64,000 bases of DNA from Conchocele bisecta (Eukaryota > Mollusca > Bivalvia > Lucinida > Thyasiridae). A program made the position numbers and the translations under genes. Positions within the stretch are counted from its first letter, which is position 1; every line of letters begins with the position of its first letter. Positions 6,369-60,715 of this stretch are shown here, one piece after another. The stretch covers positions 81,727,488 through 81,791,487 of the forward strand of contig CM055271.1 in NCBI GenBank assembly GCA_029237695.1. The letters are read 5' to 3'. Below the pieces are notes generated by a model. That model was not told the origin of the DNA and searched no databases. It saw only the letters and a program-made list of their open reading frames with translations.

Positions 6369-6384
6369 GATAAACTCTACTTTC

Positions 6385-6758
6385 AGGGCTCCAGATAAAC
6401 TTTGTGTCTAAAGCGTACTATACCCCCTGATTTCGAAATCATTGCGTATTTTACTTTTACAAATGGATTATTGATTTTCTTCATTACTGAATAGGGAAAA
6501 AATGATAACAAACATATATGATATAACACATTTAAACATTCACTTAGTTGAGCTGCAAAAAGCAAACGGTGTTTGCTTTTTGCAGCTCAACAAAGTGAAT
6601 TTTCAACTTTATGACAGTATTTTCACTACTCAATTTGAAAATTAATGCGTTTTTTCACATTACTGCGAGTATTTTGTACTCTCACTTTTGATAATCAATG
6701 CGTATTCTGCTAAAGTAACTGCGTAAAATACGCCAATACGTACCTTATCTGGAGCTCT
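6385..6758. mobile_element. MITE family A, copy 2
   Basis: The ends are AGGGCTCCAGATAAAC and CTTATCTGGAGCTCT. The inside is collinear with the copy at 18691-19042, and similarity continues past the right end to about 7013 (matching to about 19310), so the MITE was copied as part of a larger duplication. Confidence 0.8.
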
Positions 6759-7157
6759 GTACTGTATATCCTGATCTATACATACAGCGCACCAAAAGCG
6801 ATGACATGTTTTACGGGTGCTCTTTGACGAAGAATCGAGTACTGTTTATTTCTCACATTCACATGCTTTTTATTTACATTGATGGTAACCGATTCTTCAA
6901 GAAAATGATACGAGATTTAAGATTAAAACAAACTGTACAAAAATGGGAACCTGTTGGGCATTTGCTGAGCTATGTTTCGTAAAAAAACATCAGTCCGTTA
7001 GGAAGATATTAAAGCAAATCTAGTGTAACACAGCAATAAATCATGACGTCACGTCGTTCGAAAACCATGGCCTGCATTCATGTACGTACAAGGCTAGGAT
7101 TGCGCCACGTAGCCATTTTGTTACTAAAACAGTCATTCAGCTACTAATATTTCAGAA
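6759..7157. other. Spacer, partly duplicated at 19043-19310
   Basis: 6759-7013 repeats at 19043-19310 with few differences (ACAGCGCACCAAAAGCGATG is shared). 7014-7157 is not present in that second copy. No gene is seen. Confidence 0.6.
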
Positions 7158-8027: not shown

Positions 8028-8597
8028 TTATCTCGTCAACATTCTAAAACGGCATTTAAATCAACTTAATTTAATTCATTTAGCCTTCAAAAGCGAGATA
8101 AGTTAGAACCGAATTACATCAAACGCTCATTGGCGCACAGAATAGTTCGATAAAGTATGGTTGTAATATCCGTTAATCAACAGTCATGACAGTAAATTAA
8201 TCAATACTAGTTTTAGACTTTAGGAACCTTACACATCGAAATATTTCACGAATAATCTTATAATGTTACAACGTCAACGATTATGTTGGTTCTTTTCACC
8301 GTTCGTCAATCATGGAAATGAAAAAAACAAACAAGATGGCAGCTTTACGATTTAATCCTATTTAGAATGGCAACCATCCATCCCGAATTAACCATTCAAA
8401 CGTGTACTTCAGGCAGGTTCAACAGATAAATGTTCTGTTGATACTTTATATTTTGTCACCGACAATGTGAAATTACAGCTTCTTTTCAACGAAATACACT
8501 CTCAAAATTCACCAGACCCATCCATTTCCATTTGGGGCAGATTCTGCAACGAATGCGATCTGTTCAGAATAAAAATCAACAACACAAACATCATTTT
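8028..8597. other. 570 bp with no recognised feature
   Basis: AT-rich sequence between the palindromic element and the Gypsy 5' LTR. No long open frame, tandem repeat or terminal repeat was seen. Confidence 0.5.
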
Positions 8598-8955
8598 TGT
8601 TGTATCTCGGCCCGTCTAAATATTAAATCCTGAAACTAGTGATACCCGTTTTGGGATAATGTCAAGGTCGACCCACATCCGGGAACTGCGTGATGGATTC
8701 CTTTGTTTATTTCGCGGGGTGTCGGTCACATGGGCGGGCTCGACCAATCAACGACGAACCAGGATCGGTCACATGGGCGGGCTCGACCAATGAAGCACGA
8801 ACCAGGAGAGCGAGGAGGAGAGCGAGAAGTAAACAGTGTATTATTGATTCTCCGGATTATCAGAGCGAAAAACATCAACAGAGCGTCATCAAGACACGTG
8901 AGTGGTTATATTTATAGGCCGAGTGAGTATATAGTTCCCCCCCCTTGTTGACAAT
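8598..8955 (+). repeat. Gypsy 5' LTR
   Basis: Starts TGTTGTATCTCGGCCCG and ends TTGTTGACAAT. It contains two copies of a 39-41 bp repeat (GGTCACATGGGCGGGCTCGA at about 8727 and 8768) and a TATA-like TATATTTATA near 8907. Short open frames inside it are chance. Confidence 0.92.
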
Positions 8956-8959
8956 AAAA

Positions 8960-8977
8960 TGGCGTCGTCGCAGGAGC
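8960..8977 (+). promoter_or_regulatory. Primer-binding site, probably tRNA-Ser
   Basis: TGGCGTCGTCGCAGG begins four bases after the LTR. Its complement ends GACGACGCCA, which fits a tRNA-Ser 3' end and its T-stem (CCTGC). The tRNA identity is inference. Confidence 0.6.
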
Positions 8978-9213
8978 ACATTTGAAGAGAGAAAACATAA
9001 TTTACCCAGACGAACGGGGTGAATTGGGTCGTCTTCATTTGTTCATTTATTAAACATTATTGCACAAGGGAAAACCTAACATTATTGCACAAGGGAAAAC
9101 CTATTTTAACGAACCAGCGAGGGGAAATTGTGAATAAAGTTTATCAAGTCGGTGTTTGTTCAACAAATGCTGGTCTTGTTTTGACATTAAAGTGTGTTTT
9201 GTAAGCCCACAAC

Positions 9214-9831
9214 GACAGAAAAATTATGGTGGGTTCGACACATCAAGAGGGCCTGTTAAATTTGTAATTTTTATTGTTTTTATCTGAAATCTTGCAGAAA
9301 AACGGGTAGTTTGTTTGGTTTGTTCGACAAATTCAATAGTCGCTACATTTTTCCTGCATTCTGTTCAATTAGGTTGTTTAAAAATCTGTTTAAAAATTAA
9401 TAACAATTATTTGTTTCCATCTGTGTAAAACAAGGGCTGTGGTTTGTTCTACAAATTACAGTTGTTCACATACATCCGAATAATAGTAATTTCCATTTTT
9501 AACCGGGCTGGGGTTTGTTCGACAGAAAAAGTATGGTGGGTTCGACACATCAAGAGGGCCTGTTAAATTTGTAATTTGTATTGTTTTATCTGAAATCTTG
9601 CAGAAAAACGGGTAGTTTGTTTGGTTTGTTTGACAAATTAAATAGTCTCTACAATTTTCCTGCATTCTGTTAAATTAGGTTGTTTAAAATGTGTTTAAAA
9701 ATTAATAACAATTATTTGTTTCCATCTGTGTAAAACAAGGGCTGTGGTTTGTTCTACAAATTACAGTTGTTCGCATGATACATCCGAATAATAGTCATTC
9801 CCATTTTTGTAAAACTGGGCTGGGGTTTGTT
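9214..9831 (+). repeat. Tandem duplication, two units of about 307 bp
   Basis: Units 9214-9520 and 9521-9831 both begin GACAGAAAAA and share GGTGGGTTCGACACATCAAG and GGCTGTGGTTTGTTCTACAA. They lie in the untranslated leader where gag would be expected. The rest of the leader (9832-10310) is AT-rich with no gene. Confidence 0.85.
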
Positions 9832-10313
9832 CGACAAACTACAGTTCATTTTTCACACATGCGAATAATTCTGAATATTTAAAGCGATACTTTTTCAACA
9901 TTTGTATTGAGATTACGGTGTTTATTTGTGTAAAAGTTGGTGTCAATTGTACTAACAAGTCTGACCGGTGCGTTCCACTCATTGGCAGGCTGTGACCATG
10001 ATTTCTGAAATCTGAAAATCTGTTTATTTCTAGAGACAGATACGCCTTCGATTACTCGTTCGACGACAAATCGCGTGGCACAAAATAGATCATGAATTTG
10101 TGAAGTACATGTATTACTAACCGGCACTAGTCGCATAGTGTTCCAGTTTAGTGCCATTTAGTTTCTATAAGTAATTTGCAATTGTGTGAACAAATACCAA
10201 TACAACAATTACTATGTTTTGACAAGCTAGTTCGACTAGTTTACCAAATTCATTACCATTATTACATCATTTTTTGAGAACACCACATAAACAAGGACTG
10301 CGTCTTTTCTATT

Positions 10314-11154
10314 GTGCCAGCAGTCGAGTATGAGGAGATGATTGCCAAGTCGGTGTTGAGTCCAAACTTTCTGTACACGCTACCAAAGGGAGACGGCTAT
10401 GAAAAGCACCTCGAGCAAAGTTTCGAGTCGTCGAAACAGCACTTGACTGCGACGCAGCAACAACAATTCGCAAGAGTACTATGTGAATTCCAAGATGTAT
10501 TTGCTAGGGGTGAGTTTGATCTGGGACATTTCACCGAAATAACTCACAGTATTGACACCGCAGATGCAAGGCCCGTAAAGCAGAGGCTGAGACGAACCGC
10601 CGCCTGTTTCGTCCATGAAGAAGAGGCGCACTTGAAAAAAATGTTGGAAGCGGGCGTCATCCAAGAATCCACTTCAGCCTGGGCGGCTGCCCCAGTCCTG
10701 ATTCGCAAGCGCGATGGATCGGTCAGGTGGTGCATCGACTACTACGGACTAAATAATGTCACAACGAAGGACGTCTTCCCCTTGCCACTTGTGGACGACT
10801 GCTTGGACACGCTCGCGGGGAACAGCTGGTTCTCAAAGCTTGACGGTAACTCGAGTGAAAATCGAGGAAAAGGACAGACACAAGACGGCGTTCACCACCA
10901 AGTACGGTCTATTTGAGCACGTAAAAATGGGATTTGGGTTATGTAACGCCCCCGCCACCTATCCTCGCGCGATGAACCTCGTTTTACGCGGTTTATGCTG
11001 GAAAACTGTTTTGGCGTTCTTGGACGACGTTTTGGTCCTGGGGAAAACATTTGAGCAGCACCTACACAACTTGACCGGCGTTCTACTCCGGTTTAGGGAA
11101 TTTCATCTGAAACTGAAGCCCTCCAAGTGTCGCTTCTTCAGACGCGAAGTTTAA
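10314..11154 (+). pseudogene. pol: Gypsy pol: reverse transcriptase domain
   Basis: The frame opens within pol with no ATG and no protease ahead of it. It shows the Gypsy RT N-terminus (FARGEFDLG, PVKQRLRR), then GVIQESTSAWAAAPVLIRKR and VRWCIDYYGLNN with PLP. Near 10850 the frame shifts and a few residues of the usual KLDL..Y.Q.. motif are missing. It continues with KTAFTTKYGLFEHVKMGFGL and the catalytic FLDDVLVLG (near 11010-11035; FLDD in place of YLDD). A TAA at 11152-11154 interrupts the frame just before the usual FLG motif; coding continues in the same frame. The product would copy element RNA into DNA in the cytoplasmic particle. Confidence 0.88.
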
Positions 11155-12840
11155 TTCCTTGGAAGGACAGTAAACGGTGACTGCTTGTCAATGTCCATGT
11201 CCGATAGTAAAGTGGTAGAAGACTGGCCCACTCCAACCTGCTCCAAAGATGTGCAAAGATTTCTGGGCCTAGCGAATTACCACCGATCCTTTTTGAAGAA
11301 TTTTGCAAACATAGCAGAACCATTATTCCGGGTGGTAGGAAAGAATGGATTCAGGTGGGGCGAAGAACAACAAGGCGCGTTACACGCGCTGAAGTATTCC
11401 CTGACCCATCCCCCAGTCTTAGCCCTAACCAACCAGACCGATGATTTCATTATCGACACAGATGCTTCAAATTTGGCAATAGGAGCAGAGCTTATACAAG
11501 TTCAAGATGGTGTCGAAAGAGTTATAGCGTATGGGAGCTATGCGCTAACTCCAGAGCAACGTCGCTATTGCGTTACGCGCAAGGAACTATTGGCCGTACT
11601 GAGATTTTGTCGCCAATACCGCTATTACATACTGGGGCGTCCGTTCGTTGCACGCACGGATCATGCAAGTTTGACATGGCTGATGAATTTCCGAGAGCCA
11701 CAGGGTCAACTCGCGAGGTGGATGGAGGAGTTGTCCCAGTATAATATGATCCTCAAGCATCGCGAGGGGCGAAAACATACCAACGCCGATGCTCTATCAA
11801 GACTGGTGACCACCGAAACCCCGTGCGGCAACTTTTCACCATCTTTAAAGCCGCATGAGCTACCGTGCGGGGGATGCAAATATTGCAAGCGCGCATTTTA
11901 TAATTGGGGTAGCTTTGTTGAAGAAGTAGAGGATGCGGTACCGTTGGGGTCCCTGGTAGATATGCCTATTGAAGCCTTGGCTGATGGGGCATTGAGAACC
12001 CAAGTCAGCAGTGTACCACAACCAAAGACCCGTGTACAGACGACGCCTATACCCGCTGAGCAAATGTTGCCCAGTCTGCAGTTAAAAATCGAATCGGGTC
12101 AGTCATCCAGAGTTGGGGGATCCCCGCTCGAAGTGGAAGAATCTTCACAGTATAAGATTCCTGAAGAACCGTCTGAAAAGGGGATGGAAGACCGTCCAGA
12201 GTGGCAGCCGGAGTGGAGGACTAGCAATCCTCCGGAGTGGAGGGCTAACAGCCCTCGGGAGTGGAGGGCTAACAACCCTCCGGAGTGGGGGGCTGGTCAC
12301 CCCCCGGAGTGGAGGGCTAACAACCCTCCGGAGTGGGGGGCTGGTCACCCCCCGGAGTGGAGGGCTAACAACCCTCCGAAGTGGAGGGCTGATCACCCCC
12401 CGGAGTGGAGGACTGATCATCCTCCGGAGTGGAGGACTAATCATCCTCCGGAGTGGAGGACTAACCATTCTCTGGAGTGGAGGACTAACCATCCTCCGGA
12501 GTGGAGGACTAACCATCCTCCGGAGTGGTGGACTGATCATCCTCCGGAGTGGAGGACTAACCATCCTCTGGAGTGGCTACCACTACAGGACACGGTGGGA
12601 GTAAGGGAGGAGATGCAGACGACGGTTCAAGATGAGAAAGACCCATCGAAATGTCAGATGAAAACTGCAGCATGTTCAACATGCCACAGCGTTAAATACA
12701 GTCACCAGATCGGGGCACCAGAGAAACTTTGCGACGACTATACTCAACCGAAGCCGGTATCACCAACAATCGTGACAGAGTCCAGCCCCGGAATAGGGAC
12801 CGGTCCAGGAGTCTGGTCAGCAACTGAGCCCAGACCATGA
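11155..12840 (+). pseudogene. pol: Gypsy pol: RT thumb, RNase H and Trp-rich repeat linker
   Basis: After the stop the frame continues with FLG and VQRFLGLANYHRSFLKNFA (thumb/connection). RNase H follows: DTDAS, then ELLAVLRFCRQYRYYILG, DHASLTWL and HTNADALSR, which supply the acidic active-site residues. A Cys-rich CGGCKYC follows (near 11867). Next is a long linker with about 17 repeats of an eight-residue unit, mostly PPEWRTNH, at 12195-12575, and a CSTC pair near 12675. The frame ends at 12838-12840 before the integrase, where an unbroken pol should continue. The repeat linker is not part of the standard Gypsy plan. Confidence 0.88.
12195..12575 (+). repeat. 24-bp coding tandem repeat in pol, about 16 units
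   Basis: The consensus unit is CCGGAGTGGAGGACTAACCATCCT in meaning PEWRTNHP; variants encode RANN, GAGH and RTDH in the second half. Because 24 is a multiple of three, other frames on both strands are also open here; they are by-products. Confidence 0.92.
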
Positions 12841-12886
12841 CGAGCAACTGAACCGACCTTGGGCGGTTGGTGGTGAACCCTTAATT

Positions 12887-14067
12887 ATGCCCTGGGAAGA
12901 GATGGGTTGTAGTGTAGCGGGGGAACCAGTAGTGCACATTGACTGCATATTTAAAGAGGGGGAAATCAGCATTGTCGAGTGCGGGCTGGGACCTACTATG
13001 GGGGTAATAGAAGTTCAACCAGATATACCTTCTTGTTGGGGATTTACGTTAACCGAACTGAAAGAAGAACAGCTGAAGGATGACTCCCTCACTAAAATTA
13101 GCAGTTGGTTAACCGACGGCACTGAACCCACACACAATGACCTTTTTTTCTGAAAGCCCAGCCGTCAAGAATTACTGGTTGAATAAGGAGCGGTTTAAAT
13201 TGGAGGAAGGAGTGTTGTACATACTGCCCAAAGAGTCGACAGACCGACTGCTAGTTGTACCCCACCCCCTAAGAGATAAGGTCCTTGAACTTAACCATGA
13301 TATCCCCTTAGCAGGCCACCAAGGGGTGGCGCGCACGAAATCGAAGGTCAAAGAGAAGTTTTTCTGGCATCGTCTATCCGACGACGTCAACTACTATGTC
13401 ACTACATGTTCGACATGCAGTGCCAACAAGAAATCAAGCCGGTATGGGAGATCCTATGACAGAGTTCCATGCCGGAGCCCCAATGGAGAGAGTCCACATC
13501 GATTTCCTTGGTCCCTTACCAAAGACACCCCGGGGGAACGAGCATATCCTGATGATGGTGGACCAGTTCACGAAGTGGGTGGAATGTATTCCCTTGCCAT
13601 CCCAAGTCGCCGAAGTGACAGCGCGAGCAGCAGTGAATGAGTTCTTTTCCCGGTTTGGCATGCCTTTTCAGCTGCACTCCGATCAAGGAAGAAACTTTGA
13701 GAGCAAGCTGTTCACTGCGGTTTGTAAGGCCCTGCACATCCATAAGACGCGGACGACGCCCTACCGACCTTCCGCCAATGGCCAGGTCGAACGCTACAAC
13801 CGTACTCTGATGGATGCAGTACGCTGCTTCATAGGGAAGGCGCAAAACCAGTGGGATGTAGAACTTCCACAAATTGCGGGTGCAATACGGGCATCAGTGA
13901 ACCGTTCGACGGGCTGCACTGTGAACAAGTTGATGTTGGGTAGAGAAATCTACATGCCAGCACATCTCATATTCCCACCCAACAAAAGAGAGGCCCGGGA
14001 TGACGACCCAGACAGTTATGCAGCCAAACTCGTACACACGCTTCACAGGGCCCACGACTCAGCATGA
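12887..14067 (+). pseudogene. pol: Gypsy pol: integrase zinc-binding and catalytic core
   Basis: The part from 12887 to 13153 is a spacer with no known domain. A frame slip at the T run near 13143 leads into the HHCC region: LNHDIPLAGHQG, FFWHRL and CSTCSANKK. A second slip near 13436 leads into the core: MERVHIDFLGPLP (first Asp), LHSDQGRNF (second Asp) and ANGQVERYNRTL (Glu), the D,D,E triad. It closes with TGA at 14065-14067. The enzyme inserts the DNA copy into the genome. The core is well kept, but the breaks around it prevent a continuous product. Confidence 0.88.
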
Positions 14068-14137
14068 GCATCACTGAAGACCTCGGTGCGACGCATGAAG
14101 AGGAATTACGACCTGAGAATTCTTCAGCGGGGATGTC

Positions 14138-14551
14138 GTGCACCTCCTTGATACTGCGGTCGTCAAGGGCAAATCAAAGAAACTGAGTCCACCGTGGAAG
14201 GGTCCAGCAGTAGTAACCAAAAAGATTTCAGCCAGCATCTTCCGAGTTAAGCTGAAAAACTCAGTGTTCACTGCTAATCATGATAGGCTAAAGCCATGTA
14301 GAGATCGGGTGCTACCGGGGTGGATAAAGAAATGGCAGGAGGGTGAGCGTGAGGAAGATGTGAGTGAAGGGGATGACAAGCTCTACTGCAGCTGCAGAAA
14401 GCCATGGGAGGGACGCTTCATGATCATGTGCGATTACTGTGATGAGTGGTTTCATGGGTCGTGTGTGAATGTCTCGGCATCGGATGCGCTTCAAATTGAC
14501 AAGTACAAATGCCCTAAATGTGCTCGAGGTCCAAGCGCCACCTCTGACTAG
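14138..14551 (+). pseudogene. pol: Gypsy pol: GPY-like integrase tail with PHD finger
   Basis: This frame continues the integrase after one more slip between 14067 and 14138. It has KLSPPWKGPAVVTKKIS followed by FRVKL and HDRLKP, the GPY/F module of Gypsy integrase tails. A linker leads to a C-terminal PHD finger (residues about 84-134): LYCSC, MIMCDYCDEWFHGSC, then YKCPKC, giving the C4-H-C3 ligand order. Tyr before the first Cys, Met in MIMCD and Trp in EWFH fit the aromatic cage used by H3K4me3-binding PHD fingers. By analogy with chromodomain integrases it could guide integration to chosen chromatin; that role is inference. Confidence 0.85.
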
Positions 14552-14679
14552 CTGCCCGTTACCCGTGAACCAACAGTGCCATGTTTCGTCATCCCCAAGT
14601 GCAGTACTGGTCCCACCCAGGAATTTGTAATCTATGTTCGACATAGGTTGCAGACTATGTTTTATGTTGTGTTCACAGG

Positions 14680-15171
14680 ATGTCCGACGCCGTAGAAAGG
14701 GTAAACCGCGCCACTGCGAGAGCAGAACTCCTACCCATCAAGGGCTTGATCTGGGACGTCATGATGGCGCCCAGGAGAACCTCCACCGACCAACTCGCCG
14801 CCATCCAAGGACATGCGGACCTGGCCCGCGAGCGGAGGAATACCACCTGGCTGAGGACGGCTGCCCGGAACGCCGAGGAGTACCAGTTTGCCAGCGCCAC
14901 CTGGGTCGACGATCACCTCTGCCCGGTCAGACGCAAGACGCCCAAAGTCGTGGAGTCCCGAGCCTGCTTCCAAGACATCCGACTGAAGACGGACCCAAAC
15001 ATCTGCGTGATGCGCCAGGACGCCGGGACATCAGGAGTCTAGAAGGAGGTGATCGAGCTCAAAGTGACATCGCGGGCCACCGAGATGTGCCAGACAGGCA
15101 TCTCCGCCGGAGAAGAAGTGGCCCAGCTCCTGGATCTTCGAGATGAGGTCAAGCTACGACTACGAAGATGA
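14680..15171 (+). pseudogene. Accessory ORF between pol and TatD ORF
   Basis: ATG at 14680 opens 120 codons to a TAG at 15040-15042; the same frame then stays open to TGA at 15169-15171. The product is helical and Arg-rich (ADLARERRNTTWLRTAARN), with no recognised domain, membrane segment or signal peptide. The ATG follows GTTGTGTTCACAGG, which looks like a 3' splice site, one base upstream. Its end overlaps the start of the TatD ORF by 29 nt in another frame. It might be a separate protein or an N-terminal extension of the TatD product after a frame change. GC content is well above the flanking genome. Confidence 0.5.
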
Positions 15172-16972
15172 CCTTGACCTGACTCCTCTACCTACACCCG
15201 TGCCTGAGCCAACTCGAACCCAGAGTCCCGAGCCACCCGCCAGACAGCCCACACCTGCCACCACCTCACAACGTCAGACGGCACCAACTCCAGAGTATCG
15301 CCCGCAGCACCGCCCCGAGCCCGCCAGTAGAGAGCCCCGCCAGTCGTCGTCCACAAGATCTGTGTATTTCCCGTCTGCGAGAGACGAGTCGGCCGGTGCG
15401 TCGCGACGTTCGACGCCGTGGCGCACCACGTCCCCGACCCATGCCCCACCCAGTCTACGTGGATCCACGTCAACACCCGCTGCCCAGAGGAGGACGGTCC
15501 AGTCACCCTGTTCGACAGGGCCCGCTGCACCCAAGTCCAGGAGGGTGGACTCTGTGGATGGGGAGAGTAAGAGGAAGCAGGGTTGTCCTGTTCCTTGGTG
15601 CCCAGCAGCGGAGAGATTCCGGTATCCGAAGGGCCACACATATGCGGCACATATTCCCACGGCTCTTCACATCCGACATTCCGAGGATGTTCTGCGGTGG
15701 AAGGGAGCCCTGCAGAAGATCGCCTCGTCCTGGGGAGAAAGCGGCCTATCCGAATTTGTGGAATTACTCAACGCGACTGAGTGGTTTACGAAACTCGGCG
15801 GGAACTGGCGGATTCCAGACGCTACACGGACTCCGGTGACGGCGCTCAACGCGTACCTCGGGTGCACCGACCACCTATTTTCCTGCCTGCTAGTCTCCAG
15901 CCCCGGCATGCTGCTGCATTGGGAAATCCTGCTGGAACTACTCGCCCGGATGACCCCGCGACAGTATGCCAGTCTCCAGACGTACCACAACACCATGGAA
16001 GAAATCGTTCAGCGAATGCCGCCCCAGGATGCGTCCCCGGAGGTCCTCGTCATGCTGCCCAAGGATGCGTCCCTTGTAGCCGTCCCCATGCCGCCACAGC
16101 TTGCGTCCCGCGAGGTCCCCGTCGAGGAACTGGATGCCGCACCGATGGTCGCTGGATCGGGGGCTTACGACAGCCACTTCCATCTGGACCGTCTCCAGTT
16201 GGCCTTGGGAGTGGACGACGACATCGAGACAATCAACGCCCATCTACGCCCCTGGGAGGCCCACACCGTCAGTGTCATCGGGGGTGTCGTCAACTTCTGT
16301 GACCCATCCCGCTACCCAGACGAAGCCACCATCAAGGACCTACGAAGCCGGGGATATCGTACTGACATTGGGATACACCCGAAGCACGCCCCCAACGCAG
16401 ACACCGCCAACCTGTTCGCGCTCGCGAACCTCGCCACCCTCACAGATGTCGCCGCCATTGGGGAAGTCGGGATCGACCACTCTGTGCCGCCTCGGCAGTG
16501 GGCCCTTCAACATGACCTGCTGGCGAGTGTCCTCCCCCACCTACAAGACCGTCACGTGCTGGTTCTCCACTGCCGTGGGATCAACCGCGTTGACGTCGAC
16601 GAGCCGTTTAGTGCCCTTATCTACCACCTCATCGGTGTCGTCCCACCCATGCATAGGATCCACCTTTACTGCTTCTCCGGGACAACGCAGACCACCCACA
16701 TGTGGCTGAGGCACTTCCTGAACACCCGCTTCGGCTTCAGCTATATGGTGGCCAACTTCCGCCAGGGGCAGAAGGCAGCCCTCCGCACGCTGACGACGGA
16801 TCGACTGCTGCTGGAGACCGACGCCCCCTACTTCAGCGTTCCCGGCTACGCCAACTCAGCACCCAGCTTCCTGAGGATGGTCGCGGAAAAGGTTGCCCAG
16901 ATTCGAGGGGAGGCAACAGAGGATGTCCTGGAGGCGACGACGAGGAACGGCCGGGACTTCTACGGCGTGTAG
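15143..16972 (+). CDS. TatD-like metal-dependent nuclease with CCHH finger, in retrotransposon
   Basis: An intact 609-codon frame lies between pol and the 3' LTR. Residues 1-140 are Pro/Ser/Thr/Arg-rich and disordered. A possible zinc finger follows (GCPVPWC near 148, HTYAAH near 165-170), then a helical region to about 300. Residues about 341-609 form a TatD/amidohydrolase-fold domain: YDSHFHLDRL (HxH), IGIHPKH, IGEVGID (Glu), LVLHCRG (His), YCFSG, LLLETDAPY (Asp) and a C-terminal NGRDFYGV. TatD enzymes are Mg-dependent DNases acting on 3' ends. The residue before CFSG is usually His and is Tyr here, so one metal ligand may be lost. It sits where env lies in other LTR elements. Activity is inferred from motifs only. 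Confidence 0.85.
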   Translation: MRSSYDYEDDLDLTPLPTPVPEPTRTQSPEPPARQPTPATTSQRQTAPTPEYRPQHRPEPASREPRQSSSTRSVYFPSARDESAGASRRSTPWRTTSPTHAPPSLRGSTSTPAAQRRTVQSPCSTGPAAPKSRRVDSVDGESKRKQGCPVPWCPAAERFRYPKGHTYAAHIPTALHIRHSEDVLRWKGALQKIASSWGESGLSEFVELLNATEWFTKLGGNWRIPDATRTPVTALNAYLGCTDHLFSCLLVSSPGMLLHWEILLELLARMTPRQYASLQTYHNTMEEIVQRMPPQDASPEVLVMLPKDASLVAVPMPPQLASREVPVEELDAAPMVAGSGAYDSHFHLDRLQLALGVDDDIETINAHLRPWEAHTVSVIGGVVNFCDPSRYPDEATIKDLRSRGYRTDIGIHPKHAPNADTANLFALANLATLTDVAAIGEVGIDHSVPPRQWALQHDLLASVLPHLQDRHVLVLHCRGINRVDVDEPFSALIYHLIGVVPPMHRIHLYCFSGTTQTTHMWLRHFLNTRFGFSYMVANFRQGQKAALRTLTTDRLLLETDAPYFSVPGYANSAPSFLRMVAEKVAQIRGEATEDVLEATTRNGRDFYGV

Positions 16973-17629
16973 GAGATGACTCAGTTGGGGGGTACTTTTT
17001 ATTTTTGTAGAAACAATTTAAGTGGGTGGTGGGGGAAGGTATTTCTTTTGTGTGGGGGGAGAGGTTTAATTATATTGTTGGTGTACGTTCGACGTATATC
17101 CACAATCGCAGTGGGGAGTCAATAAGCCAACATTTTTATTGAGAGTAGGAATATTTTAATATTTGGGGTGGGGGTGTACGTTCCACGTATGCCGCTACTA
17201 TCACCAGGGGACCTCTTTCAATATTCATGAAAATCCTAGCGACCTTCTATTTTTGTGAGGTGTGTATATTATTATTATGTAAATACCATAAGTGGGAGGG
17301 ATTCTCGTTAACTTGCCCCTTCATTGGTAAACTTTGGGAATGTTATTATTCGGGGAATTAAGGCTTGCGTTCGACGTAGGCTACATTTCTCTGGGCCGGC
17401 TAGTCGCTTTTGCAGACGTTCCATGTCTGCAGCAGCAAAGATGCACTGTAAATACTTGTCGAAGTTTATTCCTTCTGTGTAAAACCCCATTTGACGTCTA
17501 TTTGGACGTCAACCCCTCATCAGTGACGTCGCTCGACGTCTATAACATCCTTTGTAACCGCTATATTACTAAGGTGTATACGGGCCGATATATAATCCAG
17601 AGATAGGTTCTAAACTTTTCATATAACGT
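16973..17629 (+). other. 3' untranslated part of the Gypsy element
   Basis: GT-rich sequence between the TatD stop and the polypurine tract. GTTCGACGTA and GTTCCACGTA recur (17088, 17189, 17370). No ORF of note. Confidence 0.6.
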
Positions 17630-17643
17630 GGGGGGGGGGGGAG
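17630..17643 (+). promoter_or_regulatory. Polypurine tract
   Basis: Twelve G followed by AG, directly against the TG of the 3' LTR; this is the plus-strand primer position in LTR elements. Confidence 0.85.
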
Positions 17644-18041
17644 TGTTGTATCTCGGCCCGTCTAAATATTAAATCCTGAAACTAGTGATACCCGTTTTGG
17701 GATAATGTCAAGGTCGACCCACATCCGGGAACTGCGTGATGGATTCCTTTGTTTATTTCGCGGGGTTTCGGTCACATGGGCGGGCTCGACCAATCAACGA
17801 CGAACCAGGATCGGTCACATGGGCGGGCTCGACCAATGAAGCACGAACCAGGAGAGCGAGGAGGAGAGCGAGAAGTAAACAGTGTATTATTGATTCTCCG
17901 GATTATCAGAGCGAAAAACATCAACAGAGCGTCATCAAGACACGTGAGTGGTTATATTTATAGCCCGAGTTGAGTATATAGTTTCCCCACCCCCCCCCCC
18001 CCCCCCACCCCCCCCCCCCCCCCCCCCCCCTTGTTGACAAT
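17644..18041 (+). repeat. Gypsy 3' LTR
   Basis: Matches the 5' LTR with two substitutions (GTGTCGG/GTTTCGG and AGGCC/AGCCC) and one T insertion before GAGTATATAG. A C tract near its end has grown to about 45 bases, which accounts for the extra length. Confidence 0.92.
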
Positions 18042-18324
18042 ATTTTGTTTCGTTTATTTCCTTACCTGACTGGAATCACTGGGAACAGCCATTTTTATTT
18101 TAAATGTAGATTTATTGACGTAAATAGAAGTATGACGTCAGTCATATCTGAATGACGCACGGAATGGGTAGAGAGCAAACGCAATTGGAAATTGAGGGTC
18201 ATAACCCTCACACTGTAAACAGTTCCATTTCCATCAGATTATTCAGTCAACTCAAGAAGTATACTTGGGTCGGGAAAGTAGTCACCAACACGAATGACGC
18301 GTATGAATTGTGATTAGGTCGTAT
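18042..18324. other. Short spacer
   Basis: No gene or clear repeat between the 3' LTR and the palindromes. Confidence 0.5.
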
Positions 18325-18661: not shown

Positions 18662-18690
18662 ATGTATAGGAATGAAAGAACTAAAATTCC

Positions 18691-19042
18691 AGAGCTCCAG
18701 ATAAGCTTTGTGTCTAAAGCGTACTATACCCCCTGATTTCAAAATCATTGCGTATTTTACTTTACAAATGGATTATTGATTTTCTTCATTACTGAATAGG
18801 GAAAAAATGATAACAAACATATAACACATTTAAACATTCACTTAGTTGAGTGGTGTTTGCTTTTTGCAGCTCAACAAAGTGAATTTTCAACTTTATGACA
18901 GTATTTTCACTACTCAATTTGAAAATCAATGCGTTTTTTCACATTGCTGCGAGTATTTTGTACTATGACTTTTGATAATCAATGCGTATTTTGCTAAAGT
19001 AACTGCGTAAAATACGCCAATACGTACCTTATCTGGAGCTCT
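18691..19042. mobile_element. MITE family A, copy 3
   Basis: Ends AGAGCTCCAGATAAGC and CTTATCTGGAGCTCT. It is preceded by TATAGGAATGAAAGAACTAA, which also precedes the copy at 25926. Similarity to 6385-7013 continues to about 19310. Confidence 0.85.
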
Positions 19043-19659
19043 GTACTGTATATCCTGATCTATACATACAGCGCACCAAAAGCGATGACATGTTTTACGG
19101 GTGCTCTAAAAGTTATTTACAATAACTTTGACGAAGAATCGAGTACTGTTTATTTCTCTTATTCACATGCTTTTTATTTACAATGATGGTAACCGATTCT
19201 TCCAGAAAATGATACGAGATTTAAGAATAAAACAAACTGTACAAAAATGGGAACCTGTTGGGCATTTGCTGAGCTATGTTTCGTAGAAAAACATCAGTCC
19301 GTTAGGAAGATATATTTTTTTTTGCCTCAGGGAATAAGATCATGTAGCACACATTTACATTAGCTCCTGCCAAAACTGGATTTAAAGCTATATAATACTG
19401 TGAAAAAAATGGAATTTTAGTTAATATTGTGGATTACTGAAAGTTCTACAGAATGTTAAATTTTGGTTGAAAAATATTAAATAGATTTATGGAGTTTGAA
19501 GGAAATAAAATTTGACATTTGAAAAATAGATGTAACTCTATTGTTCATACTATAGTGCATGGACAGCTTGAATGAACCCCTAGTCAGAGTGCATTCTTAT
19601 TCAACAATAGTTACTTTCACACATCGACCTGGAAAGGATTACTAACTGCTGTGTCGACC
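19043..19659. other. Duplicated spacer, then LINE 5' flank
   Basis: 19043-19310 repeats 6759-7013. Similarity stops at GGAAGATAT, followed by a T run; the AT-rich remainder to 19659 is probably the LINE leader, without an ORF. Confidence 0.5.
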
Positions 19660-34262: not shown

Positions 34263-34811
34263 TTACGGTAAATGCACGGTAAATGCGCTGTGGCATGGAA
34301 TACACCATGGACGCGGCTCACCTTTGAGCATATACGAATGCGTTAGTCGTGTATGTCCAATGCGCAATCTACTAAGGACAACTTCATCCCGGCGTACATG
34401 TCTGTAGCCAGGAGTCCATTCGCCCAGAGTCGGTTTCACAGCATGAAGTTTATTATCTGTGAGCAGATCCCACTGGATCTGCATTGTATCGAAGATGAAT
34501 GAGTTGATGGATGATTTAAAATCATGATAGCAAACAGGAAAATGAGAAGTTGGTAGATCCAGGGCGGCCTTTGCAGCACTATCTGCCCTGTCATTGCCCT
34601 TGATACCAGTATGGCTGGGTAGCCAACAAAAAATAATGTCATTTCCAGACGAAAGTAAAATATGGTGTAGCTCCATGATTTGGCGGATAAGTGGATGTTC
34701 AAGCTTCATGTTGTACAAAGCTTGTAGTGAAGATAATGAATCGGAAAATAAAATGAATTGCTTTCTCCAAGATATTTTCGCGAAATCAAGAGGAAGTAAA
34801 ATCGCCCTCAA
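34263..34811 (-). pseudogene. LINE RNase H domain and C-terminal zinc-knuckle region
   Basis: FILFSDSLSSLQAL, then FCWLPSHTGIKGNDRADSAA are the Asp, His and Asp motifs of RNase H in I-clade ORF2. The rest (LSRLRIGHTRLTHSYMLKGE, CIPC) matches the usual tail. The start of RNase H is in another frame, so at least one slip lies upstream. Confidence 0.8.
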
Positions 34812-35149
34812 TTCTGCAGAAAATATCGAAGATTTGTCTGGGAGTCTGAATTGAAGATCTCCCTCGGGGACAGCGGCAGCTGCTGCTACCCGGTCCCCGA
34901 CCTTTGAGTCATCAGTAAAAGCAGAGTGTATGTATTGTATCTGTCTTTAACTTCAAGAAAAAGTGATTTAAAAATGGATGGATCAGTTGTTGCTTTCGTG
35001 TGCTGACTAAGATCGAAGATCACCTTGGGCTGCTCCAACTGCCACGGTGGAGTATCTGGAACAGCGTATTTGGCAATGTGATCCAGATCCAAGCCAGCAT
35101 CGTGTATCAAAGGATCCATTATCTTGCCGAATGGTGGCTTGAAGCTTGG

Positions 35150-35639
35150 TTTCTTATCGAATACAGCATCTGTAGATGAAATACAGTGTTATAAGCTGGA
35201 TTAGATGGATTGGAATGTAGTTTAGTGGCGTATTGCAAAGATAAGTTGGTGCGTCTGTCGTGGAGAGAAGGCTCATTTGCTTCGGCATATAAGCTCTGTG
35301 CGTTAGACGTACGGAATGCACCCAGGCAGAATCGTAAGCCTTGGTGATGTATTGGATCGAGCGTCCAAAGATCGGATTTACTGGCAGATATATATATATA
35401 TAGTACATCCGTAGTCTAGTTTTGAGCGAACATGTGCTATGCAAAGGCGGTGCAGCACCTTTCGGTCTGCACCCCAGTCATGATTTGCTACCACTCGCAT
35501 TAAGTTGAATGCTTTCTGGCATTTAGCTTTCAAGTATCGTAAATGACCAAGAAATTTCTGCTCCCGAACTGTGATCCCAGTTTAAGTTCTGGATCAGGGT
35601 GAAGACCGCGTCTTTTGCAAAAATGCATGCAGTTAGTTT
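35150..35639 (-). pseudogene. LINE ORF2 connection region
   Basis: Between RT and RNase H, pieces such as LDPIHHQGLRFCLGAFRTSN are readable, but in changing frames; TATATATATA at 35390-35400 is one slip point. Coding similarity is recognisable while no single frame is open throughout. Confidence 0.65.
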
Positions 35640-36547
35640 TAGATTTCGAAAATTAAAAAGCCGTTTTCTGTGGCCCACTTGTTAATTTTATTGAGGCTCA
35701 GTTGTAATTGGCGCTCAATAGTTTGCATGTTCTTTGATTTGTAACATATTAAAACATCATCGACATATAAAGAACAGTCAACACCTGGTTGCAGGCATTT
35801 TACAATATTATTCAATTTAATGTTGAAAAGGGTAACAGACAATATACTTCCCTGCGGTACACCCATCTCCTGTTCATGGGGATCGGAAACGGTTGTACCG
35901 ACTCTGACTTGGAATTGTCTGTCTTTCAAAAAATTAGAAATACAATCAGGGAGATGACCCTTCAGACCGAGGTCATGAAGGTCCTTCATAATCCCATACT
36001 TCCACGTCGTGTCATATGCCTTTTCTAGGTCAAAAGATACGGCAACTATATGATCATTGTTAACAAACCCGTCTCGAATGAATGCTTCGAGTCTAATCAG
36101 ATTATCGGCAGTGCTTCTCTGGCGACGGAATCCAGACTGATACTCAGATATCAGTCCATTGGATTCCAGAAACCAGGCAAGCCTGTCGTTAATCATTCGT
36201 TCCATGGTTTTACAGACGCAGCTAGTAAGTGCGATGAGACGGTAACTTGATGGGTCGGTGTGATCCTTGCCCGGTTTGGGAACAGGTATGATTGTAGCTT
36301 CCCGCCATGAAGGCGGAAAGACGCCTTGTTCCCAAATGGTATTAACTATTTCAAGGAGGTTGTCTAAAGAGTGTTCAGGTAAATGTTTAAGCAGTTGGTA
36401 GTAGATATCATCAGAGCCTGCTGATGTATCATGTGCTTTCTCGAGGGAAGCTTTTAATTCCCTCATAGAGAAAGGAGCGTTGTAATGTTCTGAATTGTCT
36501 GAATTAAAATTAAGTTTAGTTTTCTCTTGCTCAGATTTCACCTTCAA
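35639..36547 (-). pseudogene. LINE reverse transcriptase domain
   Basis: An open stretch of 302 codons. It has FSMRELKASLEKAHDTSAGS, FPPSWREATIIPVPKPGKDH, YRLIALTSCVCKTMERMI, YQSGFRRQRSTADNL, AVSFDLEKAYDTTW, GVPQGSILSVTLFN and the catalytic LYVDDVLI. These are the conserved blocks of jockey/I-type non-LTR RTs. It ends by a frame slip at 35639. The enzyme would prime cDNA synthesis at a nicked chromosome. Confidence 0.88.
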
Positions 36548-36677
36548 GAACTCCTCAGAATAGTTATTACATGAGGAGTTCTTGGAGAAGGTATCTGCTA
36601 ATGTGTTTGAAATGTCTGTTTTGGAAGATACTTTATGTCCTGCTTTGTTGAGGTGATTGATAGAAGTTGATTTACCT

Positions 36678-37110
36678 TTACCGTTTATCTACGCCCCCAA
36701 TCATGTCCCATGTTGTTTTCATTTTAGATCGCGAATTCAACTTGGAGACAAAAGATCTCCAAGTCTTTCTCTTGCTAGCTTTAATTGTGCGTCGAGCTTT
36801 CGCTCTAAAAATTATATGAGCATTTAAATTATCTGGTGTTGCGTTATTATTTATTTGACGAATAGACTGCTTACGAGCAGTCATTGCCTCTTTGCATTCT
36901 TCGTCAAACCATGGTTTATTGACACGTTTGGGCTTTGCCAAGGTTTTTGGTATTGTCTTTTCTGCAATATCGTGTAAAATGGAAACGTAGTGTTCTAGTG
37001 GATCTTCCGCATCTCGAAAGCGATCAAGTTCTAGTTCAATCATGCACATATTACGAAATGTGTCCCAACCGGCTTTATGTAATTTCCACCTCTGGACTCT
37101 GTCAGTGGAT
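36678..37110 (-). pseudogene. LINE ORF2 linker upstream of RT
   Basis: KAGWDTFRN, LHDIAEKTIPKTLAKPKRVN, KPWFDEECKEA and STTWDMIGG-like ending KMKTTWDMIG are the standard linker between endonuclease and RT. The frame breaks near 36680 and is joined to the RT by a second slip. Confidence 0.75.
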
Positions 37111-59325: not shown

Positions 59326-59603
59326 TTTTTACCGTCTGTAAAATCGAAGCCTGTCTGTGGTTTTTTGCTAAATTTTAACCCAGGACTTGGTAAAATGTAT
59401 CCAAGAGAACTACTTAAAAGAACGAGCCAAAATTCACGATTAGGACTTTGGATACTTAAATGAATGATGGCTGTTGCAACAATTGCATATATTATAACTA
59501 CTTGAGAAATATATTGAAATTGATTTTTGGGTATTCGTTTACCACAAAATGAAAACTCTTGTTTTTCTATTTTTCCGTTTTCAATTATATCTTGTTCATT
59601 CAT
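59322..59603 (-). CDS. Small membrane protein of Polinton type
   Basis: ATG at 59603 overlaps the integrase stop as ATGA. After a polar start with FCGKRIPKNQFQ it has two hydrophobic helices (VVIIYAIVATAIIHLSI and FWLVLLSSSLGYILP), then LKFSKK and a polar end. A two-helix protein with CGK and LSSxLGYxLP words is a regular neighbour in invertebrate Polintons as I recall. Its function is not known; a role in virion or host membrane is guesswork. Confidence 0.6.
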   Translation of the reverse strand: MNEQDIIENGKIEKQEFSFCGKRIPKNQFQYISQVVIIYAIVATAIIHLSIQSPNREFWLVLLSSSLGYILPSPGLKFSKKPQTGFDFTDGKK

Positions 59604-60715
59604 ATTATGTTTGATGACGAAATCCAACTATCAAACTTTGACGGATAACCCATCCAATGAACTTTAGTTTCCTTGATTGTTTTATTACCTACACGTCTTG
59701 TACGTCGAGCAAGAACTGATTCAATTTCATATATTTCATCATCTTTTATACCTTGAATTTCCTTTCCGTAAAATGTACCCATTATTTTTTCACCATCAAG
59801 ATCTTCAATTTTATAAGTTGGTGGTAAACTTTTATTAATATGAAATATTTTAAATAATTCTGTCGTCCAGTTTGGTAGATAACCCTTTTCAAATGTGCGT
59901 TTTGTTTTATTAATACGAACTAAATCACCGACATGTAATTTGTTTTTGGCTGGAATAGCTTGTTTCATTCCATACAATGCATGTGTAACCTCAATTTCAT
60001 TTGAGGTATTGACAGAAATTGGGGTCCTCTTAATACTACGATGGTATGTTCGGTTGTATCCATCAACAATATTTTGTAAAATATCAATATATTTTCTAGT
60101 TTGATGATATGTGAAATATTTCCACATACGTGTTTTTAAAGTTCTTTGAAATCGTTCAACTATACTTGCTTTAGTTTCAGGGTTTTCGGTTGTGAAAAAA
60201 TGAATGTGCTTAGCTTTCAAGAAATGTTGAAATTCTTTATTTTTAAATTCCGTTCCTTTATCACTTTGTAAAGACCGTGGCTTTCGTTTTGATGTCTTTA
60301 GTATCAAATCAAACGCATTAATCATGTTTTCCCCGTTTTTGTTAGGAAGGGGTATGACCCATGCATATTTTGAAAATACATCTATTACACACAATAGATA
60401 TCTTTGATTCTCATTTTCACCTGAGAATTGTTGCATATCTGCCAAATCAGCCTGCCATTGTTGATCGATACCACCTACTATTGTCTTACGACGTGTAAAA
60501 CGTCTTTGAATTTGTTTATGAAGTGTATATGTTTTCTGTCTGCTCAACCATTCTTGTATATGTTTTAATCTAACATCTGAAAATGTGTTTATTCGTTTAA
60601 TTGAATCATACAAGTGTTTTGCACTTGTGTAGGCAATTGAACTTTTTGGATCATAATATATTTTCTTTAGTAATGAATTAAGTTTCTTCTCTTTGTGCTT
60701 TAATAAGGCTCCCAT
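59600..60715 (-). CDS. Polinton integrase with chromodomain
   Basis: Intact, 371 codons. The catalytic core has WQADLADMQQF (Asp near 90/93), LQSDKGTEFKN (Asp 152) and ASIVERFQRTLK (Glu 187), the D,D-35-E retroviral-type triad with 34 residues between the last two. Downstream is HVGDLVRINKTKRTFEKGYL (SH3-like tail), and residues about 325-371 form a chromodomain (YEIESVLARR, KVHWMGYPSKFDSWI). Together with C. elegans F54H12.3-type proteins this is the Polinton integrase family. It would insert the linear DNA into the chromosome, the chromodomain perhaps guiding it to marked nucleosomes. Confidence 0.9.
   Translation of the reverse strand: MGALLKHKEKKLNSLLKKIYYDPKSSIAYTSAKHLYDSIKRINTFSDVRLKHIQEWLSRQKTYTLHKQIQRRFTRRKTIVGGIDQQWQADLADMQQFSGENENQRYLLCVIDVFSKYAWVIPLPNKNGENMINAFDLILKTSKRKPRSLQSDKGTEFKNKEFQHFLKAKHIHFFTTENPETKASIVERFQRTLKTRMWKYFTYHQTRKYIDILQNIVDGYNRTYHRSIKRTPISVNTSNEIEVTHALYGMKQAIPAKNKLHVGDLVRINKTKRTFEKGYLPNWTTELFKIFHINKSLPPTYKIEDLDGEKIMGTFYGKEIQGIKDDEIYEIESVLARRTRRVGNKTIKETKVHWMGYPSKFDSWISSSNII

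Follow-up and report, generated by a model that had tools for sequence, protein, structure and literature searches.

The Gypsy (Ty3-like) retrotransposon described here lies in a 64,000-nucleotide stretch of the genome of the thyasirid bivalve Conchocele bisecta (the window; contig CM055271.1). It carries a third gene, ORF3, behind its integrase, and the product of this gene ends in a TatD-type nuclease domain. The same arrangement was found at many other places in the assembly, and we are highly confident that ORF3 is a stable gene of the element. On balance we favor a wider reading, in which ORF3 belongs to an old Gypsy lineage, is expressed from a spliced mRNA and encodes an accessory nuclease that acts in the nucleus.

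A TatD gene behind Gypsy integrases

A first-pass annotation of the window had noted an unbroken 609-codon frame with TatD motifs (15143..16972, + strand) between a Gypsy integrase and the 3′ long terminal repeat (LTR), and this placement was confirmed. The assembly was searched with the 609-residue product of the frame (P0001), with 72 of 3119 candidates scored (51 of 801 and 59 of 1345 in the other lists), which gave at least 79 matches at no fewer than 67 sites. Fifty-eight sites were read, corresponding to 61 loci minus three that overlap L008. An integrase was present upstream on the same strand at 44 of them, and at four more via L064 and further match coordinates.

Seen from the integrase, at least 81 of the 150 listed places have ORF3/TatD 0.56 to 3.4 kb downstream on the same strand, against a chance expectation of about 0.04. 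This count is a lower bound, because the scored TatD matches (150 of 420 candidates in the TatD profile search of the assembly) are part of the candidates. Among the matches listed, ORF3/TatD was found upstream on the same strand at 0 of the 150 places and on the other strand within 6 kb at two. The linkage was tightest for the 25 closest listed integrases, 22 of which are followed by ORF3/TatD on the same strand at a distance of at most 6 kb; the three exceptions have, respectively, an ORF3 fragment some 7 kb downstream, an inverted ORF3 close by, and none among the matches listed. The 125 less close integrases comprise at least 59 with ORF3/TatD and 66 with none among the matches listed. These counts bear out the proposal that the TatD gene is carried by a Gypsy lineage and was not captured by chance by one copy. 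The opposite pattern, in which family copies lack the ORF and the ORF occurs only as a host gene, was not seen for close relatives. A single-copy host gene is excluded by the many genome sites linked to integrase, and a chance ORF is ruled out by the Pfam TatD match and further computation.

LTR-like direct repeats enclose the TatD gene in the window and at L002 with L063, as well as in three of six diverged 10-kb stretches (L032, with two nested pairs, L035 and L037). L002 with L063 is a second copy of the window subfamily that has both LTRs, integrase and ORF3. No reverse transcriptase (RT) or RNase H match was found between its 5′ LTR and integrase, and therefore deleted copies can retain ORF3. 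ORF3 pieces are repeated in tandem within about 3.3 kb at L007/L008/L014/L017 (C11:92671692-92675039).

Shared history of ORF3 and integrase

Even where two loci share as little as about 24% of their TatD residues (distances reach 0.76), an integrase is still found upstream. Integrase (IN) and TatD distances were correlated (r 0.79, 34 loci, 496 pairs, 0 of 2000 permutations). Trees were built from single best high-scoring segment pairs of 34 loci chosen by length (at least 120 amino acids [aa] of IN and 180 aa of TatD); the sample omits L007, L008, L014 and L017, and L056 is missing from the IN tree. Both maximum-likelihood trees contained the groups L052/L054/L057/L058, L036/L059, L032/L033 with L046/L047, L035/L039/L043/L048, L037/L040-L042 and L031 with L060, and both recovered the group of the window with L011-like and L016 elements. 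They disagreed on L044, which has a long TatD branch, on L016, which stood next to the L011-like group in one case and outside both groups in the other, and on the order of close copies. The N-terminal domain of ORF3 (see below) was not detected in L052-L058 and L060-L061, and L052 has a single continuous match that runs from the CCHH region to the end of TatD. A single gain of ORF3 would be the simpler reading; the deepest group, L052/L054/L057/L058, may have made a separate second gain.

Comparison of dN/dS across copies, suggested as a check at first pass, pointed to purifying selection on TatD between subfamilies. The median ratio was 0.36 between subfamilies A and B (108 pairs, dS about 1.2) and 0.23 between B and C (24 pairs), and that of the integrase core between A and B was 0.04 (17 pairs), all of them rough values because between-subfamily dS is near saturation. 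Groups A-D were chosen by identity; L007 and L008, both of which overlap a single cluster, are among their members. The ratios indicate that TatD is under purifying selection in active lineages.

Domains of ORF3 and the TatD metal site

Full ORF3 products have about 690 to 890 residues (1085 in one relative). Their order is an N-terminal helical domain, a long low-complexity basic/proline-rich linker, a CCHH motif, a helical middle domain and the C-terminal TatD domain. The 609-codon frame of the window is the C-terminal four fifths of ORF3, because the N-terminal domain is present in homologs and other copies and lies out of frame here. Homologs P0002-P0004 and P0007-P0010 begin with this extra domain, and in copies L004, L006 and L008 it shares a reading frame with the first portion of the 609-codon part. 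In the window it was recognized from the homologs and by tblastn of the stretch itself as 120 codons (14680..15042, +) ending at a TAG stop at 15040, and its frame (14680-15039) differs from that of the TatD part. The CCHH finger reported ahead of TatD is indeed present (C148, C153, H165 and H170; 15584..15652, +). In an alignment of 13 proteins, C153, H165 and H170 were nearly invariant and the first Cys was found in at least 70%. The middle domain (15689..16015, +) corresponds to helices 183-291 of the AlphaFold2 model. Neither it nor the N-terminal domain had a Pfam match, and TatD and related hydrolases took up the fold-search lists.

The TatD nuclease domain (16169..16963, +) was delimited from PF01026, fold and residue table. 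PF01026 scored 101.7 bits against a curated cut-off of 27, and the predicted structure of the window product is a TatD TIM-barrel. For a DEDDy exonuclease domain, no exonuclease family was matched in Pfam, where TatD was. The metal-site residues H345, H347, H412, E441, H476 and D560 are present in the window. H345, H347, H412, E441 and H476 are invariant across the 13 proteins, and HxH, E441, H476 and D560 are retained in more than 85% of the rows with a residue there, including diverged lineages. Of the 34 rows that have a residue at position 509, 30 show His, and the window and L036 have Tyr; the complete ligand set is thus absent from the window copy, whereas the family has the 509 His.

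TatD Group II is defined by HxH instead of a (G/A)xN motif (PMC10085689; here and below, published work is cited from the available portions of its text). As H345 and H347 form HxH, the sequence places the TatD of the element in Group II with TATDN2 and TATDN3. H412 aligns with the His in the GxHP motif of YcfH-type enzymes and would correspond to H77 of TATDN1, whose change to Ala lowers apurinic/apyrimidinic (AP) activity 10-fold (PMC10085689). The Tyr at 509 need not be fatal and may be tolerated: in TATDN1, replacing metal-contacting His by Ala at two positions (H149A and H174A) caused a 2-fold loss of AP activity and left exonuclease activity unaffected (PMC10085689). Position 509 may match one of these two. 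TatD relatives need metal and act as 3′ exonucleases and AP endonucleases (PMC10085689), and TATDN2 is described as an RNase that resolves R-loops (PMC10707325; PMC12709183).

A candidate splice acceptor before ORF3

Just before the ORF3 start of the window, comparison with diverged copies revealed a candidate 3′ splice site, TGTGTTCACAG with the cut before a G (14676..14679, +). Several diverged lineages have a pyrimidine-rich CAG or TAG 1 to 6 nt before the N-terminal ATG. Of the 36 loci that have a candidate ATG, 25 showed an acceptor-like site in a simple scan, versus 173 of 3322 ATGs in the same stretches, members of one subfamily being non-independent. A GTGAGT in the LTR, spotted by eye, could be the splice donor. 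Because of the acceptor-like site before its start, we consider it likely that ORF3 is translated from a spliced, subgenomic mRNA in the manner of env.

The element and its surroundings in the window

The element (8598-18041) is bounded by a 5′ LTR (8598..8955, +), a direct repeat of 17644-18041 with exact ends set by eye, and by a 3′ LTR (17644..18041, +). Since the LTRs are 98.6% identical (349 columns) and the target-site duplication ATTTT is found on both flanks (8593..8597 and 18042-18046, read from the sequence; alternatively TTTT), the insertion is recent. RT pieces in differing frames (10278..11154, +) were recognized from ORFs and from similarity to the RT of other loci, with 43 to 81% aa identity to the RT stretches of L031-L033, L035 and L036. 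They are followed by an RNase H domain (11437..11742, +; PF17917, E=1.7e-30), the integrase H2C2 zinc-binding domain (13257..13433, +; PF17921, E=4.3e-18), the integrase core (rve; 13477..13770, +; PF00665, E=3.9e-15) and a PHD finger at the integrase C terminus (14387..14521, +; PF00628, E=1.1e-9). A purine run resembling a polypurine tract, read directly, precedes the 3′ LTR (17630..17643, +). The assignment to Gypsy/Ty3 is based on the RT-RNase H-integrase order between LTRs, the LTRs themselves and the target-site duplication. A match of the RT stretch to ATP11 (E=1.8e-4, 21.9 bits versus a cut-off of 22) was discarded as spurious, because most of the stretch aligns to the RT of other copies.

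In the leader, where gag and protease are expected, there are two copies of a direct repeat of about 305 bp (9213..9836, +). No ORF of at least 120 aa was found at 8956-10277, and the gag-like and protease-like stretches that we recognized by eye in L036 gave no tblastn match to the window. The window copy is non-autonomous, since gag and protease were not found and the pol parts are in differing frames. The PHD part was found in 35 of the 46 loci having an integrase C-terminal match, and it may direct integration to marked chromatin.

Within pol, between RNase H and integrase, a 24-nt unit (12160-12615; 15 listed overlapping copies) encodes PPEWRxNH-like repeats. Direct repeats at 6373-7009 and 18679-19313, 12.3 kb apart and 92 to 100% identical, flank the element and are not its LTRs. 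On the - strand, RT (PF00078) and RNase H (PF00075) matches in separate frames at 34263-36688 perhaps belong to one LINE-like element. Also on the - strand, at 59600-60715, an integrase core (PF00665, E=6.9e-13) is followed by a chromodomain (PF00385, E=1.1e-5), in what we take to be possibly a Polinton/Maverick-like element.

Relatives of ORF3

Searches of protein databases returned 16 family proteins (P0002-P0017), with one named source, the sea urchin Diadema antillarum. Cluster sizes reached 39 members for P0015, 24 for P0013 and 22 for P0017. The suggestion of a widespread unrecognized accessory gene fits these proteins as far as its spread is concerned; carriage by Gypsy is established within this genome. 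By tblastn, none of 28 pattern matches in prokaryote genomes and 73 in viral contigs encodes a relative. Vertebrates have up to three TatD genes (PMC10085689), and some 150 TatD matches were scored in the assembly (151 reported out of 420 candidates), of which three lie on the bacterial-looking contigs C521 and C895. These contigs, which may be assembly contaminants, hold the two best TatD profile matches (E 8.3e-80 and 7.5e-72), with open frames of 261 and 271 aa.

Discussion

We propose that a Gypsy lineage whose integrase mostly ends in a PHD finger has ORF3 as a third gene in the env position, behind the integrase. ORF3 was probably gained once, before the split into subfamilies that are as little as 24% alike in TatD, and would since have been inherited with the integrase, a co-inheritance shown in this genome. 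Its product would most likely be a metal-dependent accessory nuclease, and separate expression, basic stretches before the CCHH motif and the nuclease itself lead us to favor the nucleus as its site of action. The CCHH and middle part would place the nuclease on nucleic acid, where it would process the element's own replication or integration intermediates. Judging from tested TatD relatives, candidate substrates are 3′ single-stranded ends, abasic sites in cDNA and RNA in RNA:DNA hybrids. It is fairly probable that the nuclease activity matters to the element, and doubtful for any one of these substrates that it is the relevant one.

Several observations weigh against this proposal. The ORF3 of the window is broken, not intact as first described: the N-terminal domain is separated by a stop and a frame change, and a metal-ligand position, 509, holds Tyr instead of His. 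The splice site of the window is below the scan threshold, as are those of L002, L003 and L006. Ten of the 58 sites read showed no integrase upstream within reach (L005, L010, L030, L034, L045, L049-L051, L053 and L055); at L005 the neighboring integrase is inverted, at L030 it is about 7 kb off, and L051 and L053 have other pol matches only. Conversely, 69 of the 150 listed integrase places lack ORF3/TatD within 6 kb among the matches listed, and some places or subfamilies may truly be without it. No LTR-like pair was found in the 10-kb stretches of L031, L033 and L036, and neither the PHD part nor the ORF3 N-terminal domain was detected in the deepest group. Constraint on TatD is also far weaker than on the integrase core (A-B dN of 0.43 versus 0.09), and the roughness of the between-subfamily ratios counts here as well. 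Within subfamilies, the TatD ratios are high (0.75 in A, 0.68 in B), and the ORF of L001 versus that of L002 gave 1.04; later decay of dead copies probably contributes to the high within-subfamily values.

Some of these points would suit a structural, env-like ORF3, in which the TatD fold serves only as a scaffold or to bind nucleic acid and catalysis is not needed. The env position, the acceptor-like site, the weaker constraint on TatD than on integrase and the Tyr at 509 in the window and L036 are in keeping with it, as is the low confidence of the predicted structures (pLDDT below 50 for 195 of the 609 residues in P0001 and for 362 of the 872 in P0009). The metal-site residues, invariant in the 13 proteins or kept through diverged lineages, argue against it, and we regard it as improbable, although it is the best placed of the alternatives. 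Less probable again is a nuclease that serves the host or fights rival elements, viruses or host repair, to mutual benefit and not in the element's own cycle. A separately spliced protein, as we suppose ORF3 to be, could act in trans, and an antiviral role has been suggested for the accessory domains that retrotransposons carry (PMC6338049); against this, the sequence gives no hint of an outside target and ORF3 is linked to integrase at most of the sites read.

We give the same low probability to ORF3 as a shared module that spreads among unrelated retroelements. The ORF3s of bdelloid rotifers, which carry DEDDy or GDSL domains, offer a precedent (PMC5408684), and in the most diverged loci no match was seen to the N-terminal domain (L052-L058 and L060-L061) or to the PHD part (L052, L054, L057 and L058); the IN and TatD trees of this one genome nevertheless agree on the main groups, with L044 and L016 placed differently. 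Finally, a passenger without a role, captured once as a host gene or pseudogene by a single element, would suit the broken, non-autonomous window copy, but is largely refuted for this genome by the arrangement at more than half of the listed integrase places, the agreement of the trees and the selection between subfamilies, and is very unlikely.

In errantiviruses and retrovirus-like LTR elements, env is the third gene after pol and is made from a spliced mRNA. ORF3 resembles it in being a third gene after pol that is apparently spliced, and differs in that its product is a TatD nuclease protein. Closer in kind are the LTR retrotransposons of bdelloid rotifers, in which ORF3 encodes a DEDDy-type (DnaQ-like) exonuclease or a GDSL protein and is stated to be expressed from spliced messages (PMC5408684). 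In both systems the gene between pol and the 3′ LTR codes for an enzyme instead of an envelope protein, and the nuclease is of a type able to process 3′ ends. Here, however, the enzyme is a TatD fused to a CCHH/helical module rather than a DEDDy protein, and it apparently reflects one co-inherited gain in a Gypsy lineage, whereas the bdelloid ORF3 was gained at least twice and is shared with Penelope-like elements (PMC5408684). The TatD part has the fold, the HxH and most metal ligands of the Group II enzymes TATDN2, TATDN3, YcfH and YjjV (PMC10085689), and differs from them in its fusion to N-terminal, CCHH and helical domains and its carriage by a retrotransposon; its nuclease activity is predicted. 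Human TATDN2 shares with it the HxH group and a long N-terminal extension, a likeness of motif and layout, but is a host gene for an R-loop RNase (PMC10707325, PMC12709183).

Literature searches that extended to neither subscription papers nor repeat databases gave, among the titles and abstract beginnings listed, no report of TatD in an LTR element, and "TatD" had 0 matches in the texts of PMC6338049, PMC8220671 and PMC5408684. An enzymatic ORF3 is of a known kind, and a TatD ORF3 kept in a Gypsy lineage was not met among the papers listed.

With TatD, one more fold joins the few enzymes that LTR retrotransposons have adopted, and it has stayed in a single lineage while its copies drifted apart to about a quarter identity. 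This suggests that, besides RNase H and integrase, LTR elements require a further nuclease or benefit from one. The diverged copies provide a natural set of enzymes for asking if animal retrotransposition is limited by 3′ ends, by abasic sites or by RNA:DNA hybrids. For annotation, the warning is that what look like "gene family expansions" of TatD in invertebrate genomes may in fact be mobile elements. More tentatively, the TatD-carrying Gypsy elements could be an old clade that extends over several animal phyla, whose spliced ORF3 processes hybrids or abasic sites and so completes or protects nuclear cDNA. Were this possibility true, the multiplications of TatD and its homologs listed as "uncharacterized proteins" of hosts would be ORF3s of retroelements.
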